Below, piece after piece: positions 41,567-59,917 of a stretch of 64,000 nt of DNA. The notes under the pieces are model-generated. The model searched no databases and was not told the origin of the DNA. It was given only the letters and a program-made list of their open reading frames with translations. The stretch comes from Hyphomicrobiales bacterium. Lineage in GTDB: Bacteria; Pseudomonadota; Alphaproteobacteria; Rhizobiales; Rhizobiaceae. The position numbers and the translations under genes were made by a program. The stretch is from positions 124,001 through 188,000 of the forward strand of contig UICE01000008.1 in assembly GCA_900471815.1 (NCBI GenBank), in the 5' to 3' direction. The number at the start of each line of letters is the position of its first letter. The first letter of the stretch is position 1.

Positions 41567-41583
41567 CTTGCGTGAACCTTGCA
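41567..41583 (-). promoter_or_regulatory. Proposed FtcR/Rem operator, motA operon
   Basis: Read on the minus strand: TGCAAGGTTCACGCAAG, that is TGCAAG and CGCAAG half-sites 11 bp apart. It ends 32 bases before the motA start and shares the (T/C)NCAAG-NTTCN-CGCAAG layout with four other flagellar promoters. Tandem 11-bp half-sites suit OmpR-type regulators. Confidence 0.55.
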
Positions 41584-41838
41584 GCCGGAACGGAGTTTGA
41601 TTTCGAAAAGCAGCTGCATGTCTTCCTTTTGTAGTAAGACAAGGAGGCTCAGCTAGCCACCGAACGCCATTTGCTACATGCCATGGGCTAGCTTGCACCG
41701 CTTAAAATGAAAGAGAGTGGGTTGCAATGACAGTCGCCAGTGTTGCAAGGGCTAGTTCCTTACAATCAATTCTTTTCCTCATGGTGAGCCTTCCTGAGCG
41801 AAGGACAAACCCGCGCACACTGTCAACTGGCGTTTCTC

Positions 41839-41855
41839 CATCAGCTTCAGGCAAG
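41839..41855 (+). promoter_or_regulatory. Proposed FtcR/Rem operator, DUF1217-flgF-fliI operon
   Basis: CATCAGCTTCAGGCAAG, identical at 14 of 17 positions to the copy before flgE. It ends 43 bases before the ATG at 41899. Confidence 0.6.
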
Positions 41856-41898
41856 CTTGATTTGCGACAAATACGCAAAAGCTTCTGAAAGGCGCATC

Positions 41899-42681
41899 AT
41901 GACCAGTACGATGACGAGCTACCGTTTGATTGCTGCGGATCTGCCGCGCTCACTTGCGCGCATTGCCAAGGAACCAATGGTACAGCGCGACAGCGACTAT
42001 TATCTGAAGAACATTGGCAAGGTGAAAACCATCGATGATCTGATGAAGGATACCAAGCTATATAATTATGCGTTGAAAGCCTTCGGGCTTGAAGACATGG
42101 CCTATGCCAAGGCATTCATCAAAAAAGTTTTGACCGAAGGGGTCGAGAACAGGGACAGTTTTGCCAATAAGCTGACTGATACCCGCTACAAGGAATTTGC
42201 TACGGCTTTCAACTTCGCCAAACTGGGCGACAAGACGACCGAAAGCCCGGTCGTATTAAAGCCTGTCGTCGACAGCTATGTTCAGATGACGCTTGAACAG
42301 GAAACCGGTAAACAAAGCGACGGCGCGCGCCTGGCGCTTTATTTTTCCCGCAAGGCTTCGTCCATTACCAATGCTTATGAGATCCTTGGCGATAAGCGCC
42401 TGCTTGCAGTCTTCCAGACAACCTTCAATATTCCCAAACAGACATCCGCACTCGACATTGATCGTCAGGCCAAGATGGTTGAAGAGAAACTTGATCTCAA
42501 GGATTTGCAGGATCCGGCGAAGGTCGAGAAACTTCTTGTCCGCTTTACAGCCATGTACGACATGGCCAATCCCAGCACGAATATGGCGCCGTCAGTGCAG
42601 TTGTTTGGCGGGGCGGCGGAAATCGGCATATCGCCCAGCATTCTTGCAACCCTGCAATCATTCAAACTTGGAGGGCGCTGA
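41899..42681 (+). CDS. DUF1217 flagellar-cluster protein
   Basis: 260 residues from ATG 41899 (MTSTMTSYRLIAADLPRSLAR); the frame is open from 41857, but GGCGC-type spacing and the operator position favour this start. Mostly helical, with TDTRYKEFATAFNFAKLGDK and the GDKRLLAVFQTTFNIPKQTSALDIDRQ region typical of DUF1217. It is found next to flgF in rhizobial flagellar clusters. No signal peptide. Function unknown. The stop overlaps the flgF start (TGATG). Confidence 0.85.
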   Translation: MTSTMTSYRLIAADLPRSLARIAKEPMVQRDSDYYLKNIGKVKTIDDLMKDTKLYNYALKAFGLEDMAYAKAFIKKVLTEGVENRDSFANKLTDTRYKEFATAFNFAKLGDKTTESPVVLKPVVDSYVQMTLEQETGKQSDGARLALYFSRKASSITNAYEILGDKRLLAVFQTTFNIPKQTSALDIDRQAKMVEEKLDLKDLQDPAKVEKLLVRFTAMYDMANPSTNMAPSVQLFGGAAEIGISPSILATLQSFKLGGR

Positions 42682-43403
42682 TGGAAAATTCCATTTATGT
42701 AGGGCTTTCGTCACAAATATCGCTGGAACGCCGGCTTGATGTGCTGGCGCATAATGTGGCGAATATGTCGACGCCCGGATTCAGGGCAACAGGCATGAAA
42801 TTCGATGCGATGGTCTCGAAGGCCGCCGAGAACTCGAGCTTCGTCAGTGCTGGCGAAAGCTTTATCAAGACGGAGGCCGGACCGATCAATCAGACTGGCA
42901 ATCCGCTTGATGTTGCCGCCAAGGGGAATGTCTGGTTTTCATTGCAGACGCCAGCAGGTCAGGTGTTTACCCGTGATGGCAGAATGAAAATGTCGACCAC
43001 GGGAGAACTGCTATCGGTCAAGGGATACCCAATCCTCGACGCCGGAGGCCAGCCGCTGACAATCGACCCGAATGGGGGCCCGCCGGAGATATCTTCGGAT
43101 GGTGCGGTTTATCAAAATGGTCGTCAGCTCGGTGCCATTGGATTGTTCACGATCGATCTTGGTGCAAAACTCAGTTACTTCGATAATTCTGCAATCATAC
43201 CGAGCGTTGCTGCCCAACCAGTAATCGACAATCCGGACGCAGGTGTCATTCAGGGTGCAATTGAGGGATCAAACGTTGATGCGATCAGCGAAATGACTCG
43301 GCTCATGAATGTTACGCGCGCCTTTGAACGCGTCAATGCCTTGCTCAGCGGCAGTGAAGCGACGTTCACGAGCGCCATCAAGACCCTCGGTTCGTCCTCT
43401 TGA
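42681..43403 (+). CDS. flgF: Flagellar proximal rod protein FlgF
   Basis: 240 residues. The N-terminal rod motif LDVLAHNVANMSTPGFRATG (about residue 14) and the C-terminal helix MTRLMNVTRAFERVNALLSG are those of rod/hook family proteins. Between them lie TGNPLDVAAKGNVWFSLQTP and GQVFTRDGRMKMSTTGEL. FlgF forms part of the rod spanning the periplasm. It is exported through the flagellar secretion system without a signal peptide. Confidence 0.94.
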   Translation: MENSIYVGLSSQISLERRLDVLAHNVANMSTPGFRATGMKFDAMVSKAAENSSFVSAGESFIKTEAGPINQTGNPLDVAAKGNVWFSLQTPAGQVFTRDGRMKMSTTGELLSVKGYPILDAGGQPLTIDPNGGPPEISSDGAVYQNGRQLGAIGLFTIDLGAKLSYFDNSAIIPSVAAQPVIDNPDAGVIQGAIEGSNVDAISEMTRLMNVTRAFERVNALLSGSEATFTSAIKTLGSSS

Positions 43404-43416
43404 TGTCCTGCGATTC

Positions 43417-44793
43417 ATGACCGCGCTGGACAGTGCCCTACAGACCATGAACACCGGAACGGTGATGCTCGACAGCCTGGCGCGCCTGTTGTCACAGGCC
43501 AACCGGGAATGTGGGTCTGTTGCTGTCGGCGGATACGTCAATGAAGTATCGCGGTCGGCAATCGGTGTAAGGGGTATCTCGGACAAGGTGCAGCTTGGGG
43601 ATCTCGTGATGATCCGATGTGATCAGCATCTTCATCCCGCCGAAGTGGTGCGGCTTGAACAAACTCAAACATTGATCAAACCATTTGACGACCGGATTAC
43701 GCCATCGCTCGGCAGCCCGGTGTTTCCCGAAGGCCAGTTTCGTATTGCACCTGCACCAGACTGGAAGGGCAGGGTTATCAATGCGCTGGGCGAGCCGCTC
43801 GACGGCAAGGGATTGATGACCACCGGAACCGAACCAGTGCCTGTGGACTGTGCAGCACCTTCTGCGATGAACAGGAACCGGGTGGAAAAAGGCCTGCGAA
43901 GCGGCGTCAATGTCGTCGACGTCTTCGTGCCCATGTGTTTCGGCCAGCGTATGGGCATTTTTGCCGGTTCCGGCGTCGGCAAATCCACGCTGCTTGCCAT
44001 GATGACCAAAGCGGCGGACTTCGACACAGTCGTTCTTGCACTGACAGGCGAGCGCGGCCGCGAAGTGCGCGACATGCTTGAAGACACAATGGCTGGCAAA
44101 CTGGATAAGACCATTGCCGTTATTGCCACGGGTGATGAAAGTCCGATGATGCGACGGCTTGCTCCCAATACGGCCACTGCGATTGCCGAGTATTTCCGTG
44201 ATCGCGGCGACAATGTACTTTTGATCGTGGATTCGATTACGCGTTTTGCCCATGCAGCACGCGAAATAGCCATTGCCGCCGGTGAACCGCCGGTATCACG
44301 CGGTTATCCGCCGAGCGTCTTCAGCCAGCTGCCGAGGCTGCTTGAACGGGCAGGGCCGGGGCTTGAAGGCCAAGGCACAATTACCGGTCTTTATGCTGTT
44401 CTCGTCGATGGCGATGATCACAATGATCCCATTTCGGATGCCATTCGTGGTACTCTTGACGGTCATATCGTTCTCGATCGAACCATAGCGGCTCAGGGGC
44501 GGTTTCCGGCTGTCGATATTCTGGGATCGATATCACGTCTGGCACACCATAATTGGTCTCCGGATCAGGCAAAACTTGCGACGGGTCTGCGCAGCCTGAT
44601 TTCAAGGTTCGAGGAAACGCGCGATCTTCGGATGATCGGCGCTTATCAGACCGGCAGCGATCCGCAGATTGATCAGGCCGTCCATCTCGTACCGCTGATA
44701 TACGGGACAATGCAGCAGACGCCAGCCTCCCCACTATCTCAGGACCCTTATAGCGACCTTGCCACCGCCTTGCGGCCAACGGAGCCATCATGA
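43417..44793 (+). CDS. fliI: Flagellum-specific ATPase FliI
   Basis: 458 residues from ATG 43417 (MTALDSALQTMNTG); the open frame begins earlier but only inside flgF. P-loop AGSGVGKST at 183-191, LALTGERGREVRDMLED, Walker B LLIVDSITRFAHA, then SRGYPPSVFSQLPRLLERAG. This is the beta-subunit-like ATPase that energises export with FliH and FliJ. The start lies 13 bases after flgF. The ribosome site is weak, so ATG 43447 cannot be excluded. Confidence 0.95.
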   Translation: MTALDSALQTMNTGTVMLDSLARLLSQANRECGSVAVGGYVNEVSRSAIGVRGISDKVQLGDLVMIRCDQHLHPAEVVRLEQTQTLIKPFDDRITPSLGSPVFPEGQFRIAPAPDWKGRVINALGEPLDGKGLMTTGTEPVPVDCAAPSAMNRNRVEKGLRSGVNVVDVFVPMCFGQRMGIFAGSGVGKSTLLAMMTKAADFDTVVLALTGERGREVRDMLEDTMAGKLDKTIAVIATGDESPMMRRLAPNTATAIAEYFRDRGDNVLLIVDSITRFAHAAREIAIAAGEPPVSRGYPPSVFSQLPRLLERAGPGLEGQGTITGLYAVLVDGDDHNDPISDAIRGTLDGHIVLDRTIAAQGRFPAVDILGSISRLAHHNWSPDQAKLATGLRSLISRFEETRDLRMIGAYQTGSDPQIDQAVHLVPLIYGTMQQTPASPLSQDPYSDLATALRPTEPS

Positions 44794-45365
44794 CAGAACA
44801 ACAAGCAAACGCGGCAAAACCCGGATCGGTCGATATCGAGACAGCCCTAGCGCCCAAACAACGCGACAAGCGTTTTGACGGCTATCTTAAAACGGCAGGC
44901 TTCGGGTTGGCCGTGGTCTCCTTCGTGCTGCCATTCGTCATGTATTACGATATTCTGGATGCGCGCCCAAAGCCCGAGGCTTCCGGTATTCAGGTGCGCG
45001 ATCCTCTCAACCGTGCCAACCAGAAGGTTGTACGCGAGACAAGAGGCAAGATTGCTTCAACATCACCCAATTCCAGCGAAGAGCTTGATCCGATGACGAC
45101 AGCTACAACGTCGGAGCTGACAGCTGACAGGTTCGCGAAGATGGAGGATGCCAGCAAACAGCCTTTTCCGGGTAAGCCGCAATTCCTTGTCCGCGAAGTT
45201 GTAGGCGGACTGGTGATGATTGAGGACGAAACAGGATATTGGTTCGTCGAGAAGGGCTCACCACTGCCGGATGGCAGCACATTGGTGGCTATACAGCGCG
45301 GAGCAGCGCCCGGAAGCTGGAATATCAAGACCTCCGACGGGACTGTGATCGACAGGACGTTCTAG
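44790..45365 (+). CDS. Hypothetical flagellar-cluster membrane protein
   Basis: 191 residues, not recognised. A cytoplasmic N-terminus with a charged segment (ALAPKQRDKRFDGYLKTAG), one helix near residues 36-54 (FGLAVVSFVLPFVMYYDIL), and a C-terminal region that includes a beta-rich piece (FLVREVVGGLVMIEDETGYW) ending near WNIKTSDGT. It overlaps the fliI stop by four bases (ATGA), so it is co-translated. A flagellar assembly role, perhaps FliJ- or regulator-like, is inferred from location only. Confidence 0.75.
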   Translation: MTEQQANAAKPGSVDIETALAPKQRDKRFDGYLKTAGFGLAVVSFVLPFVMYYDILDARPKPEASGIQVRDPLNRANQKVVRETRGKIASTSPNSSEELDPMTTATTSELTADRFAKMEDASKQPFPGKPQFLVREVVGGLVMIEDETGYWFVEKGSPLPDGSTLVAIQRGAAPGSWNIKTSDGTVIDRTF

Positions 45366-45390
45366 CCAGATCGACTGAAGCTGACGCTGC

Positions 45391-45407
45391 CGCAAGTCTC
45401 ACGCAAG
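45391..45407 (+). promoter_or_regulatory. Proposed FtcR/Rem operator, flgB operon
   Basis: CGCAAGTCTCACGCAAG: two identical CGCAAG half-sites exactly 11 bp apart, ending 52 bases before flgB. An AT-rich -10-like CATATATTAAG follows at about 45415-45425. Confidence 0.6.
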
Positions 45408-45459
45408 CCTGACCACATATATTAAGAGCGGGTTAATCGGTTCGGCTGCGGGGAAGCAC

Positions 45460-45840
45460 ATGCAAGGAATTCATCTGTTCGATCTGGCGTCACGTCAGGC
45501 CGAGTGGCTGTCAGTAAGGCAGGCAGCGGTTTCAGGAAATGTTGCGAATGCAAATACTCCAGGGTTCAAGGCTCGCGATGTCGAACCATTCCATGACGTC
45601 CTTGCCCAGTCGCAACTGACAATGGCGGCCACCAATCCGAAGCATCTGGAAATCGATGCCTCAGGTATTGCGGCAACCGCCCTGCGCAAGGACGCAGTGA
45701 CCGAACAAAACCACTCCAAGAACACCGTTAACCTCGAAATGGAAATGGTGAAATCCGGCGAGATCAATCGCGAATTCGCGCTCAACACCAGCATCGTCAA
45801 GGCGTTTCACCGCATGATGATGTCATCTGTGAAGGCTTAA
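45460..45840 (+). CDS. flgB: Flagellar basal-body rod protein FlgB
   Basis: 126 residues with the rod signature [20 protein letters not shown] (about residue 21) and the C-terminal [16 protein letters not shown] helix. FlgB begins the proximal rod near the MS-ring. GGGGAAG precedes the ATG. First gene of the operon flgB-flgC-fliE-flgG-flgA-flgI-motE-flgH-fliL-fliP. The upstream 94 bases hold the proposed operator. Confidence 0.96.
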
Positions 45841-45844
45841 GCGC

Positions 45845-46264
45845 ATGAGTGATCCGCTACAGGCCGCCCTTAAAGTCGCAGCATCCGGCCTTTCCGCCCA
45901 GTCAACACGTTTACGCATCGTTTCGGAAAATCTTGCCAATGCGCAATCGACCGGCAAGACAGCCGGCAGCGATCCCTATCGGCGCAAGACGGTTTCCTTC
46001 GCGACCGAGCTTGATCGTACGACCGGCGTCGAAACGGTTAAAATTGCCGAGGTCGGCAAGGATACTTCCGCCTTTGTCGAAGAATATGAGCCAAGTCACC
46101 CGGCGGCAGACAGCCGCGGCTATGTCAAATATCCCAATGTCAGCATGGTCGTTGAAATGGCGGATATGAGAGAAGCCAACCGCTCTTACGAAGCCAATCT
46201 CCAAGTCGTCAAGCAAGCGCGCGAGCTGATTGCCATGACCGTCGATCTTTTAAGGAATTCCTGA
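45845..46264 (+). CDS. flgC: Flagellar basal-body rod protein FlgC
   Basis: 139 residues. [20 protein letters not shown] near the N-terminus is the rod motif, and the C-terminal [20 protein letters not shown] helix ends with [13 protein letters not shown]. Rod subunit exported by the flagellar apparatus. The stop overlaps the fliE start by one base. Confidence 0.96.
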
Positions 46265-46590
46265 TGATAGACCAGCTTCTCAGCGTTTCTACCCGTAACG
46301 CCCTTTCCAAACTGACCGAGACTGTCAATCAGGGGGCCGCCTCTGCTGCATCGCAAGTTGCCGCACCCGGTCAGCCATCCTTCGATAATGTGCTTTCAGA
46401 ACTCGCCAGCTCCGTGAGCGGCAAGCTGCAAACCGCAGAAGCTGTGTCCATGAAAAGCATGACGGGCGACGTGCCGACCCGCGACGTTGTTAATGCGGTC
46501 ATGGACGCGGAACAATCGCTGCAAACCGCGATCGCCATTCGCGACAAGATCGTGCAGGCCTATCTCGAAATCAGCCGCATGCCGATTTAG
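46264..46590 (+). CDS. fliE: Flagellar hook-basal body protein FliE
   Basis: 108 residues, close to the usual 100-110. The C-terminal part, with [20 protein letters not shown] and ending [12 protein letters not shown], is the FliE hallmark. The N-terminal part is Ala/Ser-rich and low complexity ([14 protein letters not shown]). FliE joins the MS-ring to the rod. Confidence 0.94.
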
Positions 46591-46607
46591 CTGGATAAGG
46601 AATCCCA

Positions 46608-47396
46608 ATGAAAGCGCTTACTATCGCAGCCACCGGCATGAATGCCCAACAGCTTAATCTGGAAGTCATTGCGAACAATATCGCCAATATCAATACGACC
46701 GGATACAAGCGCGCCAAGGCCGAATTTTCTGATCTCTTGTATCAGGCAGAGCGGACAGCCGGCGTTCCCAATGCTGCCAACCAGAGCATTGTTCCCGAAG
46801 GAGCCATGGTTGGTCTTGGTGTGCAGACAGCTGCGGTGCGCAATCTGCATATACAGGGGCCGCTCAACCAGACCGGAAATCCTTATGATGTCGCGCTGGT
46901 AGGCCGTGGATGGTTCCAGATACAGAACCCTGCAGGCGACACCTTATACAGCCGCGCCGGAGCGTTCAACGTTAACGGGACGGGTCAGCTTGTGACCCTT
47001 GATGGCAATCTCGTTGAACCGAATATCGTTGTTCCTACCGATGCGATTGAGGTCAAGATCACTGAGAGTGGACAAGTGTTCGCTAAAATGGCGGACCAGA
47101 CCCAGCTGGTTAATCTGGGGCAGCTGCAAATCGCAAACTTTGCCAATGAAGCGGGGCTGGAGCCGCTAGGCAACAATCTTTTCCGGCAAACGGATGCCTC
47201 CGGTGATCCCGTTGTGGGTGTTCCGGGTGATCCGGGCTTTGCAACGTTGAAGCAGAATTATCTTGAAAGCTCAAACGTCGATCCGGTGAAGGAGATCACG
47301 GATCTTATCACGGCGCAGCGGGCCTATGAGATGAACTCGAAAGTCATTCAGGCCGCCGACGAAATGGCTTCGGTAGTTTCGAAGAATCTGCGTTGA
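46608..47396 (+). CDS. flgG: Flagellar distal rod protein FlgG
   Basis: 262 residues, the standard length. The N-terminal rod motif is [20 protein letters not shown] (about residue 22), then [40 protein letters not shown], and the C-terminal [20 protein letters not shown]. FlgG forms the distal rod beneath the hook. The flgA reading frame starts just after its stop. Confidence 0.97.
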
Positions 47397-47404
47397 GGGT
47401 GATG

Positions 47405-47881
47405 ATGATAGCCATTGGAGCGATAAAGAATCTGTTGCGGGCCAGTGCTTTTGCCACGGCCTTCTTTGTGGTGTCGTCGGCCCTGGCCGACCGCATAACT
47501 TTTATCGTCCCATCGCAGATCATCTATCCCGGGCAGGCCATCGGCGGCAACGAGCTGCAAGAAAAGATGTTCACGATCAAGTCCAGCGCGGCGGGAAGTT
47601 ATATCCTGTCCGCCGATCAGCTGATCGGCAAGGTCGCGCGCAAGACCCTCCTTCCGGGAAAACCCATTCTGGTTACAGCCGTGAACGAGCCGGATCTTGT
47701 TCAGCGCGGAGTTTCTGTTCCAATCGTCTACGATACGGGCGCTCTGGTTATCACTGCCAAAGGCATACCAATGGAGGCCGGCCGTTCCGGTGATTTCGTA
47801 AAGGTCCGCAACATTGATAGCGGCATTATTGTAACTGGAACCGTGCTTGCCAATGGAAGCATCCAGGTTGGTATGCAATGA
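47405..47881 (+). CDS. flgA: P-ring assembly chaperone FlgA
   Basis: 158 residues from ATG 47405, chosen because AGGG (47396-47399) is five bases upstream; ATG at 47402 is two bases from it and is possible. A signal peptide (ending SSALA-D) precedes a SAF-like domain: YILSADQLIGKVARKTLLPG, PILVTAVNEPDLVQRGVSV, and a C-terminal GRSGDFVKVRNIDSGIIVTG. FlgA helps FlgI assemble in the periplasm. ATGA overlap with flgI. Confidence 0.92.
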   Translation: MIAIGAIKNLLRASAFATAFFVVSSALADRITFIVPSQIIYPGQAIGGNELQEKMFTIKSSAAGSYILSADQLIGKVARKTLLPGKPILVTAVNEPDLVQRGVSVPIVYDTGALVITAKGIPMEAGRSGDFVKVRNIDSGIIVTGTVLANGSIQVGMQ

Positions 47882-49104
47882 AGCTGCTGCGTGTCCTCAT
47901 AGCATTTGTCGGCTTGATGCTTGCAGCATCACCCGCTGGCTATGCAGCTGAGCCGTCGGCCAATGCCAAGGACTACAAAACGCCTGGGCAAGCGCGGGCA
48001 GCCTTTCAAAAAGAGCTTGATGATGGCCGCTGGGGAGGTGCCTCATCACAGCTTGGCGAGGGTGGAGCAATCGCCCGCTTGAAGGATATCGCCAATATTC
48101 AGGGTGTGCGCGAAAACCAGCTTGTCGGCTATGGTCTTGTCATCGGCTTGAACGGCACGGGTGACAGCTTGCGCAGTGCGCCCTTTACCGAACAGTCCAT
48201 GCGCGCCATGCTGGATAATCTTGGCATTAGCCCACCAGCCGGTGCCTCCCGTACCAAAAACATTGCCGCCGTGATCGTAACGGCCAATCTGCCGCCTTTC
48301 GCTGGGCGTGGTTCGCGGATCGATATTACAGTCTCGTCATTGGGCGATGCGACTTCTCTGGCTGGCGGTACGCTGGTCATGACTCCTTTGGCTGCAGCCG
48401 ATGGCCAGACCTATGCGGTTGCGCAAGGCAATATGATCGTTTCCGGCTTTACGGCCTCGGGCCAAGCGGAAACCATAACACAGGGAGTGCCGACAAGCGG
48501 CCGCATTCCCAATGGCGCGCTGGTGGAAAAGGAAGTCACCGGTAATTTTGGCCATGATGAGCTGATTGTCGAGCTGCGTGAACCCGATTTTACCACCGCG
48601 GTGCGCATTACCGATACGATCAATGCCTTTGCAAAACGCCGCTATAAGCAGGCTGTTGCCAAAGAGCGGGATTCCAAATCGATCCGCCTGCGTAAGCCTG
48701 CCAGCATTTCAGCGACGCGTTTTCTTGCCGAAATTGAGGGGCTTCCGGTCGTCACAGATGAAGTCGCCCGTGTAGTCGTTGACGAGCGGACAGGGACCGT
48801 TGTCATTGGCGAAAAAGTGCGCATCTCCCGCGTTGCGATCAGCCATGGCAGCCTGTCAGTGCGCGTGACTGAACGTCCGACGATTGTGCAGCCCGAACCA
48901 TTTTCGGACGGCGAAACTGCGGTCGAGCCAAATACCGAAATTGATGTAAACCAGACATCGAAAATCGGGGTGCTTGGGGGCACTGATCTGGAAAGCCTTG
49001 TCAAGGGGCTGAACCAGATTGGAGTGAAACCACAGGGTATCATCGCGATTCTGCAAGGCATCAAGACCGCCGGCGCCCTCCATGCCGAACTGGTGGTCCA
49101 ATGA
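47878..49104 (+). CDS. flgI: Flagellar P-ring protein FlgI
   Basis: 408 residues. A signal peptide (AASPAGYA-AE) is followed by RLKDIANIQGVRENQLVGYG and LVIGLNGTGDSLRSAPFTEQ, with MLDNLGISPP; further on RGSRIDITVSSLGDATSLAG and the C-terminal GVKPQGIIAILQGIKTAGAL. FlgI forms the peptidoglycan-associated bushing around the rod. Strong family match over the whole length. An extra segment of about 20 residues (KTPGQARAAFQKELDDGRWG) follows the signal. Confidence 0.97.
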   Translation: MKLLRVLIAFVGLMLAASPAGYAAEPSANAKDYKTPGQARAAFQKELDDGRWGGASSQLGEGGAIARLKDIANIQGVRENQLVGYGLVIGLNGTGDSLRSAPFTEQSMRAMLDNLGISPPAGASRTKNIAAVIVTANLPPFAGRGSRIDITVSSLGDATSLAGGTLVMTPLAAADGQTYAVAQGNMIVSGFTASGQAETITQGVPTSGRIPNGALVEKEVTGNFGHDELIVELREPDFTTAVRITDTINAFAKRRYKQAVAKERDSKSIRLRKPASISATRFLAEIEGLPVVTDEVARVVVDERTGTVVIGEKVRISRVAISHGSLSVRVTERPTIVQPEPFSDGETAVEPNTEIDVNQTSKIGVLGGTDLESLVKGLNQIGVKPQGIIAILQGIKTAGALHAELVVQ

Positions 49105-49625
49105 ACGTGTCGGGCTTTCTCAAAGCATCTGTTGCACCTCTTGCTTTCAGCTTGGCGCTGCTTTTGCCAGCGGCTTACGGCTTTTCCCAGGAAACAGCCA
49201 GAACGCAGGATGATACCGGTCAGGAGATTGACCGGTATTGCTCCAATATCACCGACAAGGCCGCCGATGCTCGTTATGCGATGCAAACACGCGAGCTTCA
49301 GCAATTGCGTGAGGATATAGATAGCCGTATCGAACTTCTCGACGCCAAGCGTCAGGAATATGAAGTCTGGCTGAAACGCCGTGACGAATTTATCGATAAG
49401 GCTGAAGACTCACTTGTCGGCATCATATCCAAGATGCGGCCCGACGCTGCCGCAGCGCAAATGGCACTGCTGGGCGATGAAGCCGCCGCGGCGCTCCTGC
49501 TGAAACTCAACCCACGGGTTTCCAGCGTTATTCTCAACGAGATGCCCCCGGAGAAATCATCCAAGCTGGCGCGGGTGATTGTCGGTTCGCGGGTTGTGAC
49601 GACAAAAGAAAGAACCGCACAATGA
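49101..49625 (+). CDS. motE: MotE, chaperone of MotC (MgtE N-terminal-like)
   Basis: 174 residues. A signal peptide ending near AAYG-FSQ, a helical middle (LQQLREDIDSRIELLDAKRQ) and a C-terminal region IISKMRPDAAAAQMALLGD, then LLKLNPRVSSVILNEMPPEK, which is the MgtE-N-like repeat found in rhizobial MotE. In Sinorhizobium MotE is a periplasmic chaperone that protects MotC; the motC gene lies about 7 kb further on. Overlaps flgI and flgH by four bases each. Confidence 0.9.
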   Translation: MNVSGFLKASVAPLAFSLALLLPAAYGFSQETARTQDDTGQEIDRYCSNITDKAADARYAMQTRELQQLREDIDSRIELLDAKRQEYEVWLKRRDEFIDKAEDSLVGIISKMRPDAAAAQMALLGDEAAAALLLKLNPRVSSVILNEMPPEKSSKLARVIVGSRVVTTKERTAQ

Positions 49626-50335: not shown

Positions 50336-50344
50336 AGACCCACA

Positions 50345-51654: not shown

Positions 51655-51706
51655 TCACGCACATAACGGGTTGTCGCAATGACAATAGGCATGATGCCGT
51701 TCCGTT

Positions 51707-51725: not shown

Positions 51726-51759
51726 GTCCCAAATAATATCTCATCAGGGACTTCATCCT

Positions 51760-52542
51760 ATGGCTAGCATTCTTACAAACGCGTCAGCAATGACTGCGCT
51801 GCAGACACTTTCCGCAACAAACAAGAACCTTGCAACAACGCAGGACCGTATTGCTACCGGTCAGCGCGTTTCGACAGCTTCCGACAATGCTGCATACTGG
51901 TCAATCGCAACCGGCATGCGCACGCAGAACTCGGCTCTTTCTGCTGTTAAGGACGGTCTTGGTCTTGGTGCTTCCATCGTCGACACTGCCTATACTTCAT
52001 TGACGAAGGCTATCGACCTCGCTCAGAAGATTCAGGCGAAATATGTTGCCAAGGAAACTCCAGGCACAGACGGCGCCATCATTGATGCCGACATTGCCCA
52101 GTTCAAGGCTCAGATCGTTGAAATGGCAAAGGGCGCGACATTCCAGGGCGTTAACCTGCTCAAGACAGGTGGCACAGCCCAGAACATCGTTACCGGTTAC
52201 GAGGCTGGCACTGGCGTAACAACCATTGCTGTTGCTGCATTCGATCTCGAAGCTGCTCTCACAGCCGCTACTACATCGGCAACCGTCGGTACAGCTATCG
52301 ACACGATGAAAGCTGCTGCTGCGGGTCTCGGCTCCGCAAAGACCCGTATCGACACGCAGGTAAGCTTCACCAGCTCGCTGATGGACGCGATTGATCGCGG
52401 CGTAGGCCAGCTCGTTGATGCTGACATGAACGCAGAATCAGCTCGTCTGTCTGCTTTGCAGGTTCAGCAGCAGCTCGGCATTCAGGCACTCTCGATTGCC
52501 AATTCCGGCAACCAGAGCATCCTGTCGCTCTTCCGCGGCTAA
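51760..52542 (+). CDS. fliC: Flagellin
   Basis: 260 residues from ATG 51760 (MASILTNASAMTALQTLSAT), preceded by CAGGGA; a longer open frame from 51679 would add 27 residues of leader. The N-terminal D0/D1 helix (ATTQDRIATGQRVSTASDNA) and the C-terminal helix (ARLSALQVQQQLGIQALSIA...SILSLFRG) are conserved, and the middle is short, so the outer D2/D3 domains are largely absent. This is the compact flagellin of Brucellaceae/rhizobia. It is a single-gene unit with a strong terminator behind it. Confidence 0.96.
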   Translation: MASILTNASAMTALQTLSATNKNLATTQDRIATGQRVSTASDNAAYWSIATGMRTQNSALSAVKDGLGLGASIVDTAYTSLTKAIDLAQKIQAKYVAKETPGTDGAIIDADIAQFKAQIVEMAKGATFQGVNLLKTGGTAQNIVTGYEAGTGVTTIAVAAFDLEAALTAATTSATVGTAIDTMKAAAAGLGSAKTRIDTQVSFTSSLMDAIDRGVGQLVDADMNAESARLSALQVQQQLGIQALSIANSGNQSILSLFRG

Positions 52543-52568
52543 TAAGAACAGTTCTGCAAAACTCAATT

Positions 52569-52599
52569 GGCCACGCTTCGCGCGTGGCCTTTTTGTTTT
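52569..52599 (+). terminator. Intrinsic terminator after flagellin
   Basis: GGCCACGC (52569-52576) pairs perfectly with GCGTGGCC (52582-52589) around a TTCGC loop, followed by TTTTTGTTTT. It lies 26 bases past the flagellin stop. Confidence 0.92.
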
Positions 52600-52624
52600 C
52601 TGGCAATGGCTTTGAGCAACGCCA

Positions 52625-52641
52625 CTCTAACTTCGCGCAAG
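52625..52641 (+). promoter_or_regulatory. Proposed FtcR/Rem operator, fliF operon
   Basis: CTCTAACTTCGCGCAAG; its last 11 bases, CTTCGCGCAAG, are identical to the copy before flgE. It ends 43 bases before the fliF ATG. In Brucella fliF is the reported direct target of FtcR, which supports the assignment. Confidence 0.6.
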
Positions 52642-52684
52642 CTTCAGCATCTATGGTCGGCTCAAGGTGTTGCGGTGGGAATTG

Positions 52685-54331
52685 ATGGAAAAGAACCTAA
52701 GACAGACTTTTGAGCAGCTGGGCGCAGCGTTGAAAAAGCTTGGAGCCCGGCGGCTTATTGCGCTGGGCATCATCGGTGTGACGCTTTTTGCCACTATTCT
52801 TGCCTCTAGTTTTTATCTTAACCGGCCGCAATATGAGACACTCTATGTCGGGCTGAGCCGCGATGACGTTAATCGCATGGGTATGGCCTTGGGCGAAGCG
52901 GGCATACCGTTCGATGTCAAGTCAGACGGAACATCGGTTCTGGTGCCATTCGGCAAGGCCGATCAGGCGCGTATGTACCTTGCAGAAAAGGGCCTGCCGA
53001 CAAGCAACAATGCCGGTTACGAACTTTTCGACAATATGGGCTCGCTGGGCCTCACATCCTTCATGCAGGAAATCACGCGGGTGCGCGCGCTTGAAGGCGA
53101 GATATCACGGACCATTCAGGCCATACGCGGGATCAAGGCATCGCGAGTGCACATTGTCTTGCCGGAGAAAGGCAGTTTCCGTCGCGGCGATCAAGCTCCC
53201 TCCGCGTCGGTTGTCATCCGCACCGAAGGCGATTTCGCAATTGAATCCGCGCAATCCATACGCCAGCTTGTGGCAGCGGCCGTTCCGCAATTGACTGCCT
53301 CGGAAGTCACGATCCTCGATACGAATGGCAGGCTGCTGGCTTCCAAGGATGACGGCACCAATGCCGGTGCAGTCATGTCCGCCACGCTGGAGCAGAATGT
53401 CTCGTCATCCGTTGACGAGAATATCCGCAAGGCGCTTGCGCCCTATCTGGGCGTTGGGCATTTCCAGACAAGCGTTCAGGTGGCACTGGATACGGATCGG
53501 CGTCAGACAAATGAGACAGTGTTCGACCCTGAATCGCGCGTCGAACGCTCGGTTCGCGTGGTGCGCGAAAGTGGCGATTCGAAAAATTCCACCAGTGACA
53601 ATGCGACAGGTGTGGAACAGAACATTCCACAGGAAGAGATTGCCAGCAGAAATGGCGACAGCGCCACTGAAAAAACCGACAAGCGTGAAGAACTGACCAA
53701 TTACGAGCTGAACTCGAAGACGGTTTCGACCACGAGTGACAGCTATCAGATCAAGCGCCTTTCGATTGCGGTCGTGGTTGATCAGGCGCGATTGCTGGCG
53801 ACTGCCGGTGAGACTCCGCCGCCGGCCAACTTCGTGGATCAGCAGATTGCCAAGATTACGCAATTGGTCGCAACCGCCGCCGGTCTTGATACCAAGCGCG
53901 GCGATGTGATCAATGTTACAGCTGTGAACTTCCTGGAAGCGGCCGACGAGCAACTGCAACCGGCTTCAACACCCATATCGGAATTGATCTTCCGGCAGAC
54001 AGGTACGCTCATCAATGCTGCGGCGCTGATTGCGGCGGTCGGTTTGGTACTCTGGTTTGGCGTGCGTCCATTGATGCGCGAAATGAGCAATCAGCAGAAC
54101 GCTTTGCAGCTGGCGGACGAGCCGAGTTTCGCTGTGCCGGGTCTTGCACCGGCAAACAATCTTCCTGCTGTTGCTGCTGCAAATGCCGAGCAAAGTGCGC
54201 CCTATGATGATCTCAGCGAGTTAAGACGCCGCATGCGCGTTCCGGCCCAGAACAGGCTGGAGCAGATGATCGACATGGATGAGGAGCGCGTAGCTGCCAT
54301 CCTCAAGCAATGGGTGCATGAAGCGGCATGA
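52685..54331 (+). CDS. fliF: Flagellar MS-ring protein FliF
   Basis: 548 residues from ATG 52685, preceded by GGTGGGA; GTG at 52667 is an upstream alternative. First helix near 22-45 (RLIALGIIGVTLFATILASS), then ring-building domains with YETLYVGLSRDDVNRMGMAL, ALEGEISRTIQAIRGIKASR, a long periplasmic part, and the second helix near 440-455 (GTLINAAALIAAVGLVLWFG). The cytoplasmic tail binds FliG. First gene of the fliF-fliH-like-motB-motC-fliK operon. Confidence 0.96.
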   Translation: MEKNLRQTFEQLGAALKKLGARRLIALGIIGVTLFATILASSFYLNRPQYETLYVGLSRDDVNRMGMALGEAGIPFDVKSDGTSVLVPFGKADQARMYLAEKGLPTSNNAGYELFDNMGSLGLTSFMQEITRVRALEGEISRTIQAIRGIKASRVHIVLPEKGSFRRGDQAPSASVVIRTEGDFAIESAQSIRQLVAAAVPQLTASEVTILDTNGRLLASKDDGTNAGAVMSATLEQNVSSSVDENIRKALAPYLGVGHFQTSVQVALDTDRRQTNETVFDPESRVERSVRVVRESGDSKNSTSDNATGVEQNIPQEEIASRNGDSATEKTDKREELTNYELNSKTVSTTSDSYQIKRLSIAVVVDQARLLATAGETPPPANFVDQQIAKITQLVATAAGLDTKRGDVINVTAVNFLEAADEQLQPASTPISELIFRQTGTLINAAALIAAVGLVLWFGVRPLMREMSNQQNALQLADEPSFAVPGLAPANNLPAVAAANAEQSAPYDDLSELRRRMRVPAQNRLEQMIDMDEERVAAILKQWVHEAA

Positions 54332-54993
54332 CGGCATCCCAACCCAGATCCATTGCCAGCATGCTGACGGATTTCACGCCGCAGCATGTGCCTGCCGATC
54401 GCGTGACGGTATTTACCGCACCTGGCGAGCGGATAACAATCAAAACCGATATTGACGATTCTCCTGAAGAGGTAGTCGAACTCATCGACTATGAACTCAA
54501 GATCAAGGAGGCATTTGCTGCGGGCAGGGAGTCGGGGCAGGTTGAAGCTTCGGTTCTGTTCGAGGCTGAAAAGGTCAGGTTGGAGCGGGAGTTTCAAGAA
54601 CAGCTTGCCGGAGCTGAAGTGACGTTTCTGGAGCAGACGGGAGCGCGCATTTCAGCGCAATTGGATGAAGGGCTGAAGACGATTGCGTCTGATCTTTCCG
54701 GCTCGCTTGCTGCGGTGCTTGTTCCACTGATTGAAGTCAATATGCGGGAACGTGCGGTAAGTGCGTTCGCAAGCGAAATAGAGCGACTGACCATGGGATA
54801 TGAAGGGATTACCGCGAAGATCAGCGGCCCATCGCATCTTCTGGACGTGCTTCGCAACCGGCCCGGCTTTGATCTTACGCGTTTTTCTCTGTCAGAGGCA
54901 AACCAGGCAGAGCTGTCCCTGCGGCTTGACGATACGGTTATCGAGACACGGCTTGGCCGTCTGATCGATAGTTTGAGAGATCACATCCGATGA
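54328..54993 (+). CDS. Probable FliH-like export ATPase regulator
   Basis: 221 residues, predicted all-helical with a central coiled coil (FEAEKVRLEREFQEQLAGAE) and an FliH/HrpE-like C-terminal half (LVPLIEVNMRERAVSAFASE). It follows fliF with a four-base overlap, the position where many flagellar operons place fliH, and no other FliH is in the window. FliH binds FliI and controls its ATPase. The match is by architecture and context rather than sequence identity. Confidence 0.6.
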   Translation: MTASQPRSIASMLTDFTPQHVPADRVTVFTAPGERITIKTDIDDSPEEVVELIDYELKIKEAFAAGRESGQVEASVLFEAEKVRLEREFQEQLAGAEVTFLEQTGARISAQLDEGLKTIASDLSGSLAAVLVPLIEVNMRERAVSAFASEIERLTMGYEGITAKISGPSHLLDVLRNRPGFDLTRFSLSEANQAELSLRLDDTVIETRLGRLIDSLRDHIR

Positions 54994-56225
54994 ACATTGA
55001 TCCCGAAACGCATCGCGAAATTGTTATCGTGCGTCGTGGCCGAGGCGATGGCGAAGACAGTCATCACGGCGGTGTCTGGAAGATTGCCTATGCTGACTTC
55101 ATGACGGCAATGATGGCATTCTTCCTCGTCATGTGGCTCATCAATGCTGCTAACGAGGAAACCAAAGCGGCTGTTGCCAGCTATTTCAATCCCGTAAAAT
55201 TGATGGACCGTAACGCCAGACCAAAGGGTATTCAGGACTCTGACGAGGAAAAGGGCAAGGTCCGCTTCGAACGTCCCGATTCCACCGATGCGGAAACAAA
55301 GAGTTCTCGCAACGACCGTGATACTGAGACGCAGCCAGAACGCGAAGAGCGGCAGATATTCAAAGATCCCTATGCGGTTCTTGCGGAGATCGCCACGGAT
55401 TCTGGTGTCCTCCAGAACCGGTCCGTCGCGGGTGCCGGTGGCATTAATCGTGCTGGTCCAATGACCGGTGCGGAAGGCGGTGAGGCCTATCGGGATCCCT
55501 TCAATCCCAACTATTGGACTAACCGGGCGGATGATGAAATTTTCCCTCTGACGGATAGCCCGCCCGTGCCACCCCCATCCTATGAAAAAAGCGCTAGCGT
55601 CAAAAAGGACGCCTCCAAACAGGAGTCGGCAACGATTGAACAGGCATCGCTGGCACAACGGTTGAGCGCTGGCGATATAAAACCCGATCCCGCCGCCAAG
55701 TCTGTCGAGGGCAAGAAAGCTGCTGGTCAGACGGGCACGGAAGGCAAGCGGGAGATGAGTCCAGCTGAGATTGCCCAAAAGCTTGCTGCGGAAATCGCAA
55801 AGACCGGCATTGCAGATGAGAAAAATGCGCCGGAGGTGACAGTGGTCCCCACCAATGAAGGCGTTATGATTCAGCTGACTGACAAAGTTGACTATGGCAT
55901 GTTTGCCATTGGCTCGGCAAAGCCTGACAAGCGCGTCGTGCAGGTGCTGGATGAGATCGGCAAGATCATCGCCTCCCGCAAGGGTGATGTTGTCATCAGC
56001 GGTCATACCGATGCGCGACCGTTCAAGAGCGATAGCTATGACAATTGGCGTTTGTCCTCGGCGCGTGCCCATATGGCTTATTATATGCTGACGCGGGGCG
56101 GTCTCGACGCAAAGCGTATTCTTCGAATTGACGGTTATGCGGATCGCGACCCAAAGATTGCGTCGGATCCCTATGCAGCTCAAAATCGCCGGATCGATAT
56201 TTTTCTTAAAACGGTTGGCAGATGA
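54990..56225 (+). CDS. motB: Flagellar stator protein MotB
   Basis: 411 residues. The single helix holds the proton-binding Asp36 in KIAYADFMTAMMAFFLVMWL. A long linker of about 200 charged residues (rhizobial type) is followed by the OmpA-like peptidoglycan-binding domain from about residue 290, with VVISGHTDARPF, YDNWRLSSARAHMAYYML and YADRDPKIASDPYAAQNRRI. It works with MotA, whose gene lies far upstream in a separate operon. Confidence 0.96.
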   Translation: MNIDPETHREIVIVRRGRGDGEDSHHGGVWKIAYADFMTAMMAFFLVMWLINAANEETKAAVASYFNPVKLMDRNARPKGIQDSDEEKGKVRFERPDSTDAETKSSRNDRDTETQPEREERQIFKDPYAVLAEIATDSGVLQNRSVAGAGGINRAGPMTGAEGGEAYRDPFNPNYWTNRADDEIFPLTDSPPVPPPSYEKSASVKKDASKQESATIEQASLAQRLSAGDIKPDPAAKSVEGKKAAGQTGTEGKREMSPAEIAQKLAAEIAKTGIADEKNAPEVTVVPTNEGVMIQLTDKVDYGMFAIGSAKPDKRVVQVLDEIGKIIASRKGDVVISGHTDARPFKSDSYDNWRLSSARAHMAYYMLTRGGLDAKRILRIDGYADRDPKIASDPYAAQNRRIDIFLKTVGR

Positions 56226-57427
56226 GAGTGAGGCGCTATCATCTTGTGTTGATACTGGGTTTGTTCGGTTTGATGCAGGCACAGGCACGAGCGGATATGC
56301 TTGCACCAGAGCCATATCTTCTGGTGCGGTCAATGCGCATGTTGCAGGACCAGGTAGCATCTGGAAAGCCGGAAGCGTTGCCGATGCTCAACCGGGTTCT
56401 TGCGCATGTTTCTCGTCAGTTTAAAGAGGCCAAACCGGAGGCTTGGGACAAGCCGGCCAATGCCTATGCGCTTTTCATCTATCTGCTGAATGGTGGCAAT
56501 CCTGATGTTGTACGCGGCATCATTGCCACGCTGAAGCCTGATCAGATCAATCCTAAACTTATCGCCGGATCATTGGCCTATGCAGATGGCGATGCGCTTC
56601 GCATTGTCGAGAACTTTCAGGAACTGCCGCCAAATCTGCCAGCAGAACTCAACGCTTCGATCTATTTGGTAACGGCATCTCAACTCGCTTCGATTGATGC
56701 GATTACAGCTCTCAAGCGCCTCGACTATATACGGCTGAATGCGCCGGGAACGCTGCTGGAGGAGGCCGCACTGCGCCGCGGTCTCAGCATCGCCGCTGGT
56801 CTTGGCGAGAAAGACAAGCTGCTATATCTGTCCAGAAACTACCTGCAACGCTTTGAACGATCACCATATTCGGAAGATTTCTATCGCCAGCTTGTCGACG
56901 CCTTGCTGAAGCTGAAGGACAAAATCAGCGAGGAGGAAATCAAGGATCTGGCAGTGCTGGCTTGGCCGGGCGCCCGAATGCCCTTTTACTTGCGCCTCGC
57001 CCGTAGCTCTATTGTGAATGGTGATCTGGTCCGTGCCCGGTTTGCCGCGCGGGAAGCGGAAGAACTGGCCACTGCGCTCAAAGCCGACAACACACAGGCA
57101 AGGCTTTACCTTGCTGTGAGCAATGTCGGTTCCGATGAGACCGGAGAAGCGGGCAGAATATTGTCCAGCCTGCCAAAGGATCGTCTGCATGGCCGCGACG
57201 TAAACCTACTTGAAGCGGCCATGGCCATGGCGGGGAAAATAACCGAACAACCGCGTGTGACGTCAGCTGCCATGGAGCCCCAAACTATCCCCACGCCAGA
57301 GATCGCCACGCAGACGCCGCAAAAGACGCGCCAGCCGCCAGCCGTCGATACGGAAGATGCAATGATTAAAGAAACGCGCAAGAAGCTCGATGCGATCGAC
57401 GCAATTCTTGGAAAGGCCGGGAAATGA
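56222..57427 (+). CDS. motC: Periplasmic motor protein MotC
   Basis: 401 residues. Signal peptide (LIL...QAQARA-D), then a helical domain: EPYLLVRSMRMLQDQVASGK, AWDKPANAYALFIYLLNGGN and GTLLEEAALRRGLSIAAGLG. The C-terminus is Gln/Pro-rich. MotC is found in rhizobia and is required for motility with MotB; MotE acts as its chaperone. Overlaps motB and fliK by four bases. Confidence 0.93.
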   Translation: MRVRRYHLVLILGLFGLMQAQARADMLAPEPYLLVRSMRMLQDQVASGKPEALPMLNRVLAHVSRQFKEAKPEAWDKPANAYALFIYLLNGGNPDVVRGIIATLKPDQINPKLIAGSLAYADGDALRIVENFQELPPNLPAELNASIYLVTASQLASIDAITALKRLDYIRLNAPGTLLEEAALRRGLSIAAGLGEKDKLLYLSRNYLQRFERSPYSEDFYRQLVDALLKLKDKISEEEIKDLAVLAWPGARMPFYLRLARSSIVNGDLVRARFAAREAEELATALKADNTQARLYLAVSNVGSDETGEAGRILSSLPKDRLHGRDVNLLEAAMAMAGKITEQPRVTSAAMEPQTIPTPEIATQTPQKTRQPPAVDTEDAMIKETRKKLDAIDAILGKAGK

Positions 57428-58704
57428 CGATCGGATCCAATATGCCTTTCAAGCTGAAGTTGCAGACGCCGGTGCGGGCTACAAAGGAAGAGACGCAAGG
57501 CAACTTCCAGGAAATGCTTGGAGCCAAAGAGCTGCAACCTAATTTTGGATTGCTTTTGGAGGCCGTCAAGCCACACCGGAACAGCGTTTTAAACCACATT
57601 CCTGGTGACGAAAAAAGCGCTGGGCCAGACAGCCCGCCCGATCACAGGGATGAGGAATCCATGTCGCTTACACAGAGTGCTTTCACGCAACCAATTATTG
57701 CGTTGGAGCAAATGCTGGATAGGCGGCAAGGTGATAAAACCGCTTTTGCCCCCGATACCTTGATTGACCAGCAGGGCTTGCAAGGAGCAGTGTCCGTGAC
57801 AGATTCGGATGCTGCTGAATTGACGCTGGGAAACAATGACATCCCGCCACAGACAGATGCTGCAGATGTTCTTGCAGACAAAGAACAAGCGCCGAAGCAA
57901 GTGCCAGAGCGCTCAGGCAGACTTTCCGTCTCATCCGCGCCTCCTGTATCCGAACAAGCCCCATTCGAGCCCGCATTGCCAACTCTTGTCTCCGCAAAGC
58001 AGCAGGAGATCGATGGCGCCAGCTCTGCCATAGCGTCAAAGGCGGTAAAACCGGAGAAACAGGATCCCAATCCGGTGACGGAGACATTGCAGGACGTGAT
58101 TGCGGCGTCTGACACGAACACATCCCAGCAGGCTGCTCCTTCATTGCCACAAGCCACGGCAAAACCCTTGATGGGAAATATCGCGATGGTTACGGTACCG
58201 GCCAATTCACCGGCTGTCACCGGCATAGAAGTGGTTTTTGATCGCACCACGGGTGCTGCAAGGACGCTGGTCATTCAATTGCAGCCCGTCGAACTCGGCA
58301 CTGTAACGGCCAGACTGCGCCTGACATCCGAGGGAATGCATATCCAGATTGCTGCGGCGAGCACTGCAATGGCCGAACATTTATCGAATGATCGTGAGGC
58401 CCTGGGCAAAGCGCTGCACCGCGCTGGCGTTACGGATGATGCATCCAATGTCACAATATCCATTATAGACCGCTCGCAGGCAGGTGCTGGGAACCCTCAA
58501 GCCGGTCAGCAAAATCTTAACGGGCAAGATCCGCAACAGCTCGGCGCGCGCGGCAATAATCAGGGCCAATCAGGTTTCCAGAATACGCCGGAAGATCGAA
58601 CCACCCATCAAAGTTTTTCCGCAGACGTTGCACCGGATGACCATGTCGAATTACCGGCAAAGCCAGGCGCTCAAATTCGTTCTTCGCGCGGGCTCGTCGT
58701 TTAA
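57424..58704 (+). CDS. fliK: Flagellar hook-length control protein FliK (MotD)
   Basis: 426 residues. The first 260 residues are disordered and rich in Pro, Gln, Ser and Ala. The C-terminal Flg_hook domain shows TLVIQLQPVELGTVTARLRL with GMHIQIAAASTAMAEHLSND and REALGKALHRAGVTDDASNV. FliK measures hook length and switches export specificity through FlhB; it was first called MotD in rhizobia. It ends the fliF operon. Confidence 0.92.
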   Translation: MTIGSNMPFKLKLQTPVRATKEETQGNFQEMLGAKELQPNFGLLLEAVKPHRNSVLNHIPGDEKSAGPDSPPDHRDEESMSLTQSAFTQPIIALEQMLDRRQGDKTAFAPDTLIDQQGLQGAVSVTDSDAAELTLGNNDIPPQTDAADVLADKEQAPKQVPERSGRLSVSSAPPVSEQAPFEPALPTLVSAKQQEIDGASSAIASKAVKPEKQDPNPVTETLQDVIAASDTNTSQQAAPSLPQATAKPLMGNIAMVTVPANSPAVTGIEVVFDRTTGAARTLVIQLQPVELGTVTARLRLTSEGMHIQIAAASTAMAEHLSNDREALGKALHRAGVTDDASNVTISIIDRSQAGAGNPQAGQQNLNGQDPQQLGARGNNQGQSGFQNTPEDRTTHQSFSADVAPDDHVELPAKPGAQIRSSRGLVV

Positions 58705-59165
58705 TTCGCACCTGACTGTCGGTTTGCCTATGCCGTCACCAGTCCGTGGGGACCAGGCCGCGTGCGCGCACGCCATGATTGCACCAAAAACGAAGTTGGC
58801 AGCGAGGCATTGCGGGGCGGGCAATGAACATCATGCAGAAAAATTATGTTTGCCGGGTAATGGAACATATGACGCAAGCGAGCGCAAAAACTGGACTCCT
58901 GGCAGGCGCATCTTTTGCAATAAGGGACCACGTTAATACACGGTAATAAAACGTGAATTTTATTTCCCGTTGGCAATTTGTTAAACTTATTGCGTCAGCT
59001 TTGCTACAGCCGCCGTGTCGGCTTTTCCCCCAAGTCCAGCTATTATACCACTTCATTCCGACTCCCAATTAATTAGGAACAATTAGTTGGGGATTGTCGA
59101 CAACTCCTTACCACCGCTACGTGTGTCGTGCTTGGGGTTAAGTTACTGATTCGGAAGGTGGGGTT
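58705..59165. other. Non-coding gap between fliK and ftcR with several dyads
   Basis: 461 bases with no gene I can support. It contains a 14-bp perfect palindrome GCGTGCGCGCACGC (58760-58773), an AT-rich stretch (58935-59000), a strong inverted repeat at 59063-59090 (CCAATTAATT loop AGGAAC, AATTAGTTGG) and the palindrome TTGTCGACAA (59093-59102). A 40-codon open frame at 58824-58946 has no recognisable product. The dyads close to ftcR are probable regulator sites. Confidence 0.5.
59063..59102. promoter_or_regulatory. Dyad elements upstream of ftcR
   Basis: The first dyad pairs CCCAATTAATT (59063-59073) with AATTAGTTGGG (59080-59090): 11 pairs, one G-U. The second is the 10-bp palindrome TTGTCGACAA (59093-59102). 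Both lie 63-103 bases before the ftcR GTG. They may be operators for a regulator such as the VjbR-like protein or an autoregulated site. Confidence 0.45.
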
Positions 59166-59837
59166 GTGATTGTAGTCGTCGACGAACGAAGTCTGGTGAC
59201 GAGTGGGTATTCTGCATGGTTCGCCCGAGAGGGCATAACGACAACCGGGTTTTCTCCGAACGATTTTGGTGAGTGGGTCGCCACCGTTCAGGAGCAAGAT
59301 ATTATGGCAGTGGAAGCATTTCTGATAGGGGAGTGCGCGAACCGCAGCCAGTTTCCACATAAAATTCGTGAACGTTGCTCGGCTCCCGTGATCGCTGTCA
59401 ACGACACCCAATCGCTGGAAAACACGCTGGAGCTTTTCCAGGCTGGCGTCGATGATGTTGTGCGCAAGCCCATGCATGTTCGCGAGATTTTGGCCCGGAT
59501 CAATGCAATTCGTAGACGTTACGGCAATGGCAGCAGTGGAACCCAGATCGGGCCGATCAAGATTTTCTCCGACGGGCGCGATCCGCAGGTCAATGGGGTT
59601 GATTTTTCCTTGCCGCGCCGCGAACGCCGTATCCTTGAATATCTGATTGCCAACCGCGGACGGCGGTTGAACAAGGCCCAGATATTCAATGCGATCTATG
59701 GAATCTTCGATAGTGAAGTCGAAGAAAGCGTTGTCGAGAGCCATATCAGCAAGCTGCGCAAGAAACTGCGTGAGCAGCTTGGATATGATCCGATCGATTC
59801 AAAACGCTTCCTTGGCTATTGCATAAATCTCGACTGA
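59166..59837 (+). CDS. ftcR: Flagellar transcriptional regulator FtcR/Rem (OmpR-type)
   Basis: 223 residues from a GTG start. The receiver domain (1-115) has VVVDERSL with acidic residues and [15 protein letters not shown] with the conserved Lys, but the usual phospho-accepting Asp position is Glu50 ([11 protein letters not shown]), so it may act without phosphorylation. The winged-helix domain (about 130-223) has [20 protein letters not shown] and [20 protein letters not shown]. In Brucella FtcR activates flagellar genes including fliF; Rem is the Sinorhizobium counterpart. It precedes flgE. Confidence 0.94.
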
Positions 59838-59900
59838 AGACCGGCGAGTGCCGCCGATCTTGATCAATCGAATTTTTTTAGCTTCTCTCAGTGATTCCCA

Positions 59901-59917
59901 CGTCAGCTTCGCGCAAG
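59901..59917 (+). promoter_or_regulatory. Proposed FtcR/Rem operator, flgE operon
   Basis: CGTCAGCTTCGCGCAAG, the clearest copy of the shared element, ends 48 bases before the flgE ATG. CATAAC follows eight bases later as a -10-like sequence. Confidence 0.6.

Follow-up and report, generated by a model that had tools for sequence, protein, structure and literature searches.

The 64,000-nucleotide stretch of DNA analysed here (the window; positions 124,001 to 188,000 of contig C17 in genome G000) belongs to a genome assembled as 19 contigs totalling 4.6 Mb and carries a flagellar gene cluster in which five operons are preceded by a shared 17-bp element, the subject of this work. The regulator FtcR encoded in the cluster shares 98% identity with its counterpart in Phyllobacterium sp. 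YR531 and 89-94% with those of other named Phyllobacterium loci, and on the strength of these values the host is treated here as a Phyllobacterium. The cluster genes flhB, fliG, fliN, fliM and motA lie on the minus strand; after motA follow, in order, DUF1217-flgF-fliI, flgB...fliP, flaA, fliF...motB-motC-fliK, ftcR and flgE-flgK-flgL, and past the end of the window flbT, flgD, fliQ, flhA, fliR and a rod-binding gene. Transcription units were assigned from gene order.

The original prediction had described the element as a tandem half-site operator, a proposed FtcR/Rem box ending 32-52 bases before the start codon, and we located all five 17-mers at the coordinates and on the strands it gave. 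The box of the motA operon occupies 41567..41583 on the minus strand (TGCAAGGTTCACGCAAG) and ends 32 nucleotides (nt) before the start codon. The other four are on the plus strand, upstream of the DUF1217-flgF-fliI operon (41839..41855, CATCAGCTTCAGGCAAG, ending 43 nt before the start), the flgB...fliP operon (45391..45407, CGCAAGTCTCACGCAAG, 52 nt), the fliF...motB operon (52625..52641, CTCTAACTTCGCGCAAG, 43 nt) and the flgE operon (59901..59917, CGTCAGCTTCGCGCAAG, 48 nt). The core pattern ARNYTCRSGCAAG, which was composed after the sites had been seen, hits these five sites in the window and nothing else, against a mean of 0.19 and a maximum of 2 in dinucleotide shuffles, none of 100 of which reached five. 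With one mismatch, the looser core YTTCRSGCAAG was at chance level in the window (16 found against 12.0 expected) and was discarded. The matrix scores of the five sites range from 19.2 to 23.3, whereas the best score in the 400 nt upstream of the flagellin gene flaA (51760..52542, plus strand; the flaA query retrieved no other gene from the genome) is 2.3, as expected from the earlier claim that flagellin lacks the element. When each promoter class was left out of the matrix in turn, no non-site in the window outscored the held-out sites of motA, DUF1217, flgB and flgE, and two outscored that of fliF. A -10-like hexamer had been placed about eight bases past four of the five boxes; four boxes do have one, but at a distance of exactly 10 nt, namely TAGCTC for motA (41551..41556, minus strand) and, on the plus strand, TATATT for flgB (45418..45423), TATGGT for fliF (52652..52657) and TAACGA for flgE (59928..59933).

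The pattern is conserved upstream of the orthologous operons. Among promoters taken from 18 other Phyllobacterium stretches, to which two near genera were added, it was present within the genus in every upstream region reached (motA 11/11, DUF1217 13/13, flgB 18/18, fliF 18/18 and flgE 18/18). We then applied a 17-mer matrix trained on these genus sites to 42 stretches from other genera of the family, with gene starts extrapolated from tblastn and matches below 37% identity or beginning past residue 60 dropped. Sites scoring at least 12 were found upstream of flgB in 20 of 20 cases, of motA in 4/4, of flgE in 34/39, of fliF in 13/23 and of DUF1217 in 3/5. At the same threshold the control upstream regions of ftcR (0/42), fliP (0/28), flgI (0/10), flgF (0/11) and fliI (0/8) had none, and those of flaA and motB had one each (1/33 and 1/37). 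The control flgG gave 5/28; the flgG query also picks up flgE, and in the leave-one-out scan such matches are those of flgE. We thus confirm that the five 17-mers are a real, conserved flagellar promoter element.

The sites outside the genus also reveal a strict promoter grammar. The consensus of the 17-mer is approximately CGCMAG-N-YTCR-CGCAAG, that is, two CGCAAG-like half-sites 11 bp apart. In sites selected by a matrix that already includes the first half-site, the second half-site shares on average 3.59 of 6 bases with the sequence 11 bp upstream, compared to 0.6-2.2 at other upstream lags and 2.59 at one downstream lag. The matrix contains no information from the -10 region; nevertheless, among the 70 of 74 family sites scoring at least 12 that lie 25-80 nt upstream of a start, all held out from training, 65 have TA at spacer 10 and 57 have TANNNT, whereas at all other spacings from 5 to 21 TA occurs in 0-2 of the 70. 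Two direct half-sites at an 11-bp period, at a fixed distance from the -10, are features of PhoB/OmpR-type operators. The pho box bound by PhoB likewise consists of tandem half-sites with an 11-bp period in the -35 region, at a fixed distance from the -10 element, although its half-site word is different. Because TA is fixed at spacer 10, the box appears to sit at the -35 position, as PhoB-type tandem operators do, and the element very probably belongs to this known kind of tandem-repeat operator. Such rigid spacing (65/70 at 10 nt) would also be seen if the box were simply the -35 element of an alternative sigma factor, the box and TANNNT forming a single sigma promoter, with FtcR acting elsewhere. 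However, an element of 17 bp with an 11-bp repeat exceeds the usual -35, and the distribution of the box across genomes, described below, also argues against a sigma promoter.

Within the genome, specificity depends on how much of this grammar is used. In the scan proposed with the original prediction, a sample of 400 kb from the genome contained no 17-mer scoring at least 18, but lower thresholds let in many more, and a 17-mer scoring below 18 was rejected as non-specific when considered as a marker. The box plus TA pattern gave six matches in the whole genome, at motA, flgB, fliF and flgE plus two antisense within open reading frames (ORFs), against one for the reversed control; the latter two (C12:476538 and C17:198385, in ORFs of 631 and 412 codons) were taken as chance. 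The loose CTTCRSGCAAG with one mismatch (518 genome matches against 332 for the reversed pattern) was not retained. A matrix that includes box, spacer and -10 had a single match of at least 20 in the 400 kb sample, or about 11 per genome by extrapolation; the sample match at C8:210696, with a score of 20.5, is antisense within a 472-codon ORF and was likewise attributed to chance. The same matrix identified two further boxes just past the window, upstream of flhA (C17:189278, score 23.1) and of the rod-binding gene (C17:192599, score 23.8). Thus, the five operons of the original prediction do share the element, but its list was incomplete. Wherever the gene could be located in the named loci, both box and 10-nt spacer are retained (flhA 15/15, rod-binding gene 14/14), the counts covering the Phyllobacterium loci and L064 and omitting L077, a distant metagenome-assembled genome that was matched late in the gene. 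In all, seven boxes precede every flagellar unit seen except flaA and ftcR. Autoregulation of ftcR through a partial CGTCAGCTTTGCTACAG in its upstream region was considered and rejected, given a score of 6.0, or 8.6 for the opposite strand, and the absence of sites scoring at least 12 from the family ftcR upstream regions.

The regulator proposed to bind the box is encoded within the cluster itself. The ftcR gene (59166..59837, plus strand) adjoins flgE, lying just before it, and encodes an orphan regulator of the OmpR/PhoB type that is 68% identical over 99% of its length to Rem of Sinorhizobium meliloti, whose gene has the same position relative to flgE; this combination of winged helix, gene position and high identity to Rem is that of FtcR, Rem and LafR. 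The winged-helix domain (Trans_reg_C, PF00486) exceeds its Pfam cut-off, whereas the receiver domain, at 25.5 bits, is below its cut-off of 30.2. Among the NCBIfam matches listed there was no equivalog above cut-off, and the relatives of solved structure that were obtained are exclusively of the OmpR/PhoB type. The recognition-helix stretch HISKLRKKL is nearly invariant in 61 FtcR sequences. By register, the residue at the expected Asp position in these sequences is Glu in 46, Arg in six, Ser in three, Gly in two and Gln in one, with three unread, so that the receiver looks unable to be phosphorylated, a second difference from the pho box system. According to passages of a review, LafR does not need phosphorylation (PMC8429497), and MirA is given as an inhibitor of Rem (PMC8429497, PMC12632262, in the parts available).

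Across the order, the box tracks FtcR. In a survey of 199 genomes, in which FtcR was the only regulator covered, the strict box plus TA pattern was present in 30 of 47 genomes with FtcR compared to 28 of 152 without it (Fisher 1.6e-8), whereas the reversed pattern was not associated (18/47 and 56/152, p 0.86); the genomes are related rather than independent, and these p-values are therefore too small. Among the genomes with FliF, the pattern occurs in 28/42 of those with FtcR and in 20/105 of those without, which argues against the alternative sigma factor, a reading that we consider unlikely; genomes with neither FliF nor FtcR have it in 8/47. Outside the family, where flagellar genes were sought with Phyllobacterium proteins and those of the other flagellar lineage are detected less well, 21 of 41 matches in genomes with FtcR precede a flagellar gene by no more than 400 nt (motA 9, flgE 5, DUF1217 2, flgF 1, flagellin 4) compared to 0 of 34 in genomes without FtcR, 24 of these 34 belonging to genomes with FliF. 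Seven genomes have two FliF matches. Five of them contain flagellar-linked boxes, eight in total, and each of these lies closer to the FliF that goes with ftcR than to the other. This fits the control reported for LafR of Bradyrhizobium diazoefficiens, a Rem homologue that, in passages of the same review, governs lateral and not polar flagella (PMC8429497).

In five FtcR-encoding genomes (L169, L172, L173, L188 and L199) we observed strong tandem boxes followed by TA after 10 nt, outside ORFs of 100 codons and in stretches with no known flagellar gene; non-flagellar or chemotaxis targets are possible. Three others (L114, L116 and L134) encode ftcR relatives (57-63% identical) in 20 kb stretches with none of twelve other flagellar query genes.

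The S. meliloti flagellar region provided a further comparison. In 70 kb of a record of strain Ak57, scanned with the genus-trained matrix (score of at least 14, or of at least 9 with TANNNT), eight of the ten listed matches are at flagellar operons: 160 nt upstream of fliF, 51 of motA, 95 of DUF1217, 44 of flgE, 40 of flgB, 303 of the gene before motB and 113 of the rod-binding gene, with the eighth in the gap between fliQ and flhA, the latter unannotated there. The remaining two are in flhB and, on the opposite strand, between two flagellin genes. Six of the eight flagellar matches have TA at spacer 10, and neither the che operon nor rem nor any of the four flagellins is preceded by one of the matches listed in the 70 kb. 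In passages of the review, fliM and orf38 are among the class II genes that Rem activates (PMC8429497); the matches agree with this list of Rem targets, in which orf38 would be the gene before motB. Two S. meliloti sequences, L247 and L248 (CP090106.1), come from a 3.7 Mb record that is titled plasmid pSymB and contains the flagellar and chemotaxis cluster; it may be a mislabelled chromosome.

Taken together, conservation in the genus, the family and S. meliloti, co-occurrence with FtcR and nearness to the ftcR-linked FliF support the proposed FtcR/Rem box. The sequence-based checks suggested with the original prediction come out mostly in its favour, the link to FtcR is indirect though strong, and we put the probability that the 17-mer is an FtcR operator standing in the -35 position of class II promoters and switching them on at about 0.88. 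Under this model, the flagellar master activator known as FtcR, as Rem in Sinorhizobium and Agrobacterium and as LafR in Bradyrhizobium would bind the 17-mer as its operator, with two winged-helix domains lying head to tail on the direct repeat. Taking the place of the -35 and ending 10 nt before the TANNNT of the -10, the box would allow FtcR to recruit a sigma70-type RNA polymerase in a PhoB-like manner. FtcR would then jointly activate the basal body, motor, hook and export operons, with flagellin deferred to a later step. Because the receiver mostly has Glu instead of a phosphorylatable Asp, the activity of FtcR probably tracks its amount, independently of phosphorylation. An operator of this kind would explain how one protein could activate seven units while flagellin waits; its strict grammar would allow direct and indirect targets to be separated by sequence, and it would reveal which of two flagellar systems FtcR, Rem or LafR drives.

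Several observations weigh against this model. The DUF1217 box in the window has no TA at spacer 10, the flhA boxes retain only the second half-site, and outside the genus the fliF site is weak, with only 4/23 scoring at least 14. At lower scores the 17-mer is not specific: six score at least 16 in the 400 kb sample, or about 69 per genome by extrapolation, and the composite pattern, if a mismatch is allowed, does not rise above its reversed control in this genome (33 and 32), although its matches include the DUF1217 and rod-binding gene sites. Across the order, 17 of 47 genomes with FtcR lack the strict pattern, and for 20 of the 41 matches outside the family in such genomes no flagellar gene was recognised downstream; two of the 20 are 0.6-0.8 kb upstream of ftcR, and the remainder fall either within ORFs or between genes with no known neighbour. 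Unlike in Phyllobacterium, flagellin is preceded by a box, at 144-171 nt, in four genomes outside the family (L171, L174, L176 and L181). Finally, the motif published for FtcR of Brucella melitensis, TGTGGGCA, differs from the box (PMC9456535, in the passages available).

This last discrepancy matters, given that Rem, FtcR and LafR are described as the master flagellar activator of rhizobia and brucellae and yet the printed motif does not fit the promoters examined here. The B. melitensis protein is likewise named a flagellar master regulator and is bound upstream of fliF; in the same passages, TGTGGGCA is found in 118 of 363 peaks from chromatin immunoprecipitation with sequencing, and gel shifts are described for ftcR and betI (PMC9456535). 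FtcR could accordingly act on these operons through TGTGGGCA, with another role for the box. However, the window lacks the octamer, as do the 300 nt ahead of each of nine genes in the genus and family stretches; it is rare there anyway (0.003 per 300 nt), so that its absence speaks against a conserved site and says nothing for avoidance. We regard this alternative as extremely unlikely. Brucella itself was not among the genera examined, so each motif may hold for targets of its own. No operator was found in the literature passages on LafR (PMC8429497 among them), nor an operator consensus for Rem or LafR in the literature searched, which did not extend to the primary Rem and FtcR papers.

Alternatively, a different regulator might bind the box: CtrA, a VisNR-like pair or a LuxR-type protein that has an autoinducer-binding domain and is encoded beside flhB (35319-36239). 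A CtrA-like TTAA-N7-TTAA (45422..45436, no strand assigned), the only copy in the window, overlaps the -10-like element of flgB, and like the box it would be the site of an OmpR-type regulator at a flagellar promoter. But the box is a direct repeat that differs in sequence and spacing from TTAA-N7-TTAA, and binding by another regulator appears very unlikely; the genome survey, which covered FtcR alone, leaves room for one that travels with it. At flgB, the CtrA-like site is present in 11 of 18 other genus loci, with N6 in two more, and missing in five. In other genera it occurs upstream of ftcR in 19/42, of flaA in 8/34 and of fliF in 3/23, whereas none of the 18 ftcR upstream regions in the genus has it; some distances to this site are artefacts of stretch ends, and the control counts come from a repeated run. 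For S. meliloti rem, a CtrA-like motif has been reported at which, in the passages available, CtrA binding was not found (PMC4433202).

A broader picture is tentative and, in our estimate, has somewhat less than an even chance of being right. One grammar, with tandem CGCMAG/CGCAAG at an 11-bp period, 10 nt and TANNNT, might define a class II regulon common to Rem, FtcR and LafR across the order, limited to one of two flagellar lineages and run by a phosphorylation-free activator, and hence the Brucella motif would not be its flagellar operator. In addition, cell-cycle input might have been rewired in the family, the CtrA-like site being upstream of ftcR or rem in many genera and on the flgB promoter in most Phyllobacterium.

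S. meliloti has two LuxR-type genes beside fliF, which from the gene order we take to be visN and visR, and also CheW, whereas CheW (PF01584) had no match in any of 20 Phyllobacterium genomes (this genome and 19 others) in which the flagellar cluster is present; their flagella apparently operate without the usual chemotaxis core. The LuxR-type gene adjoining flhB is the only Autoind_bind match in the genome, is under the cut-offs for VisN and VisR and could be a counterpart of Brucella VjbR. In five Phyllobacterium plasmid-collection records, the replicon that carries ftcR measures between 211 kb and 1.6 Mb, and contig C17, which contains the window, is 316 kb long.

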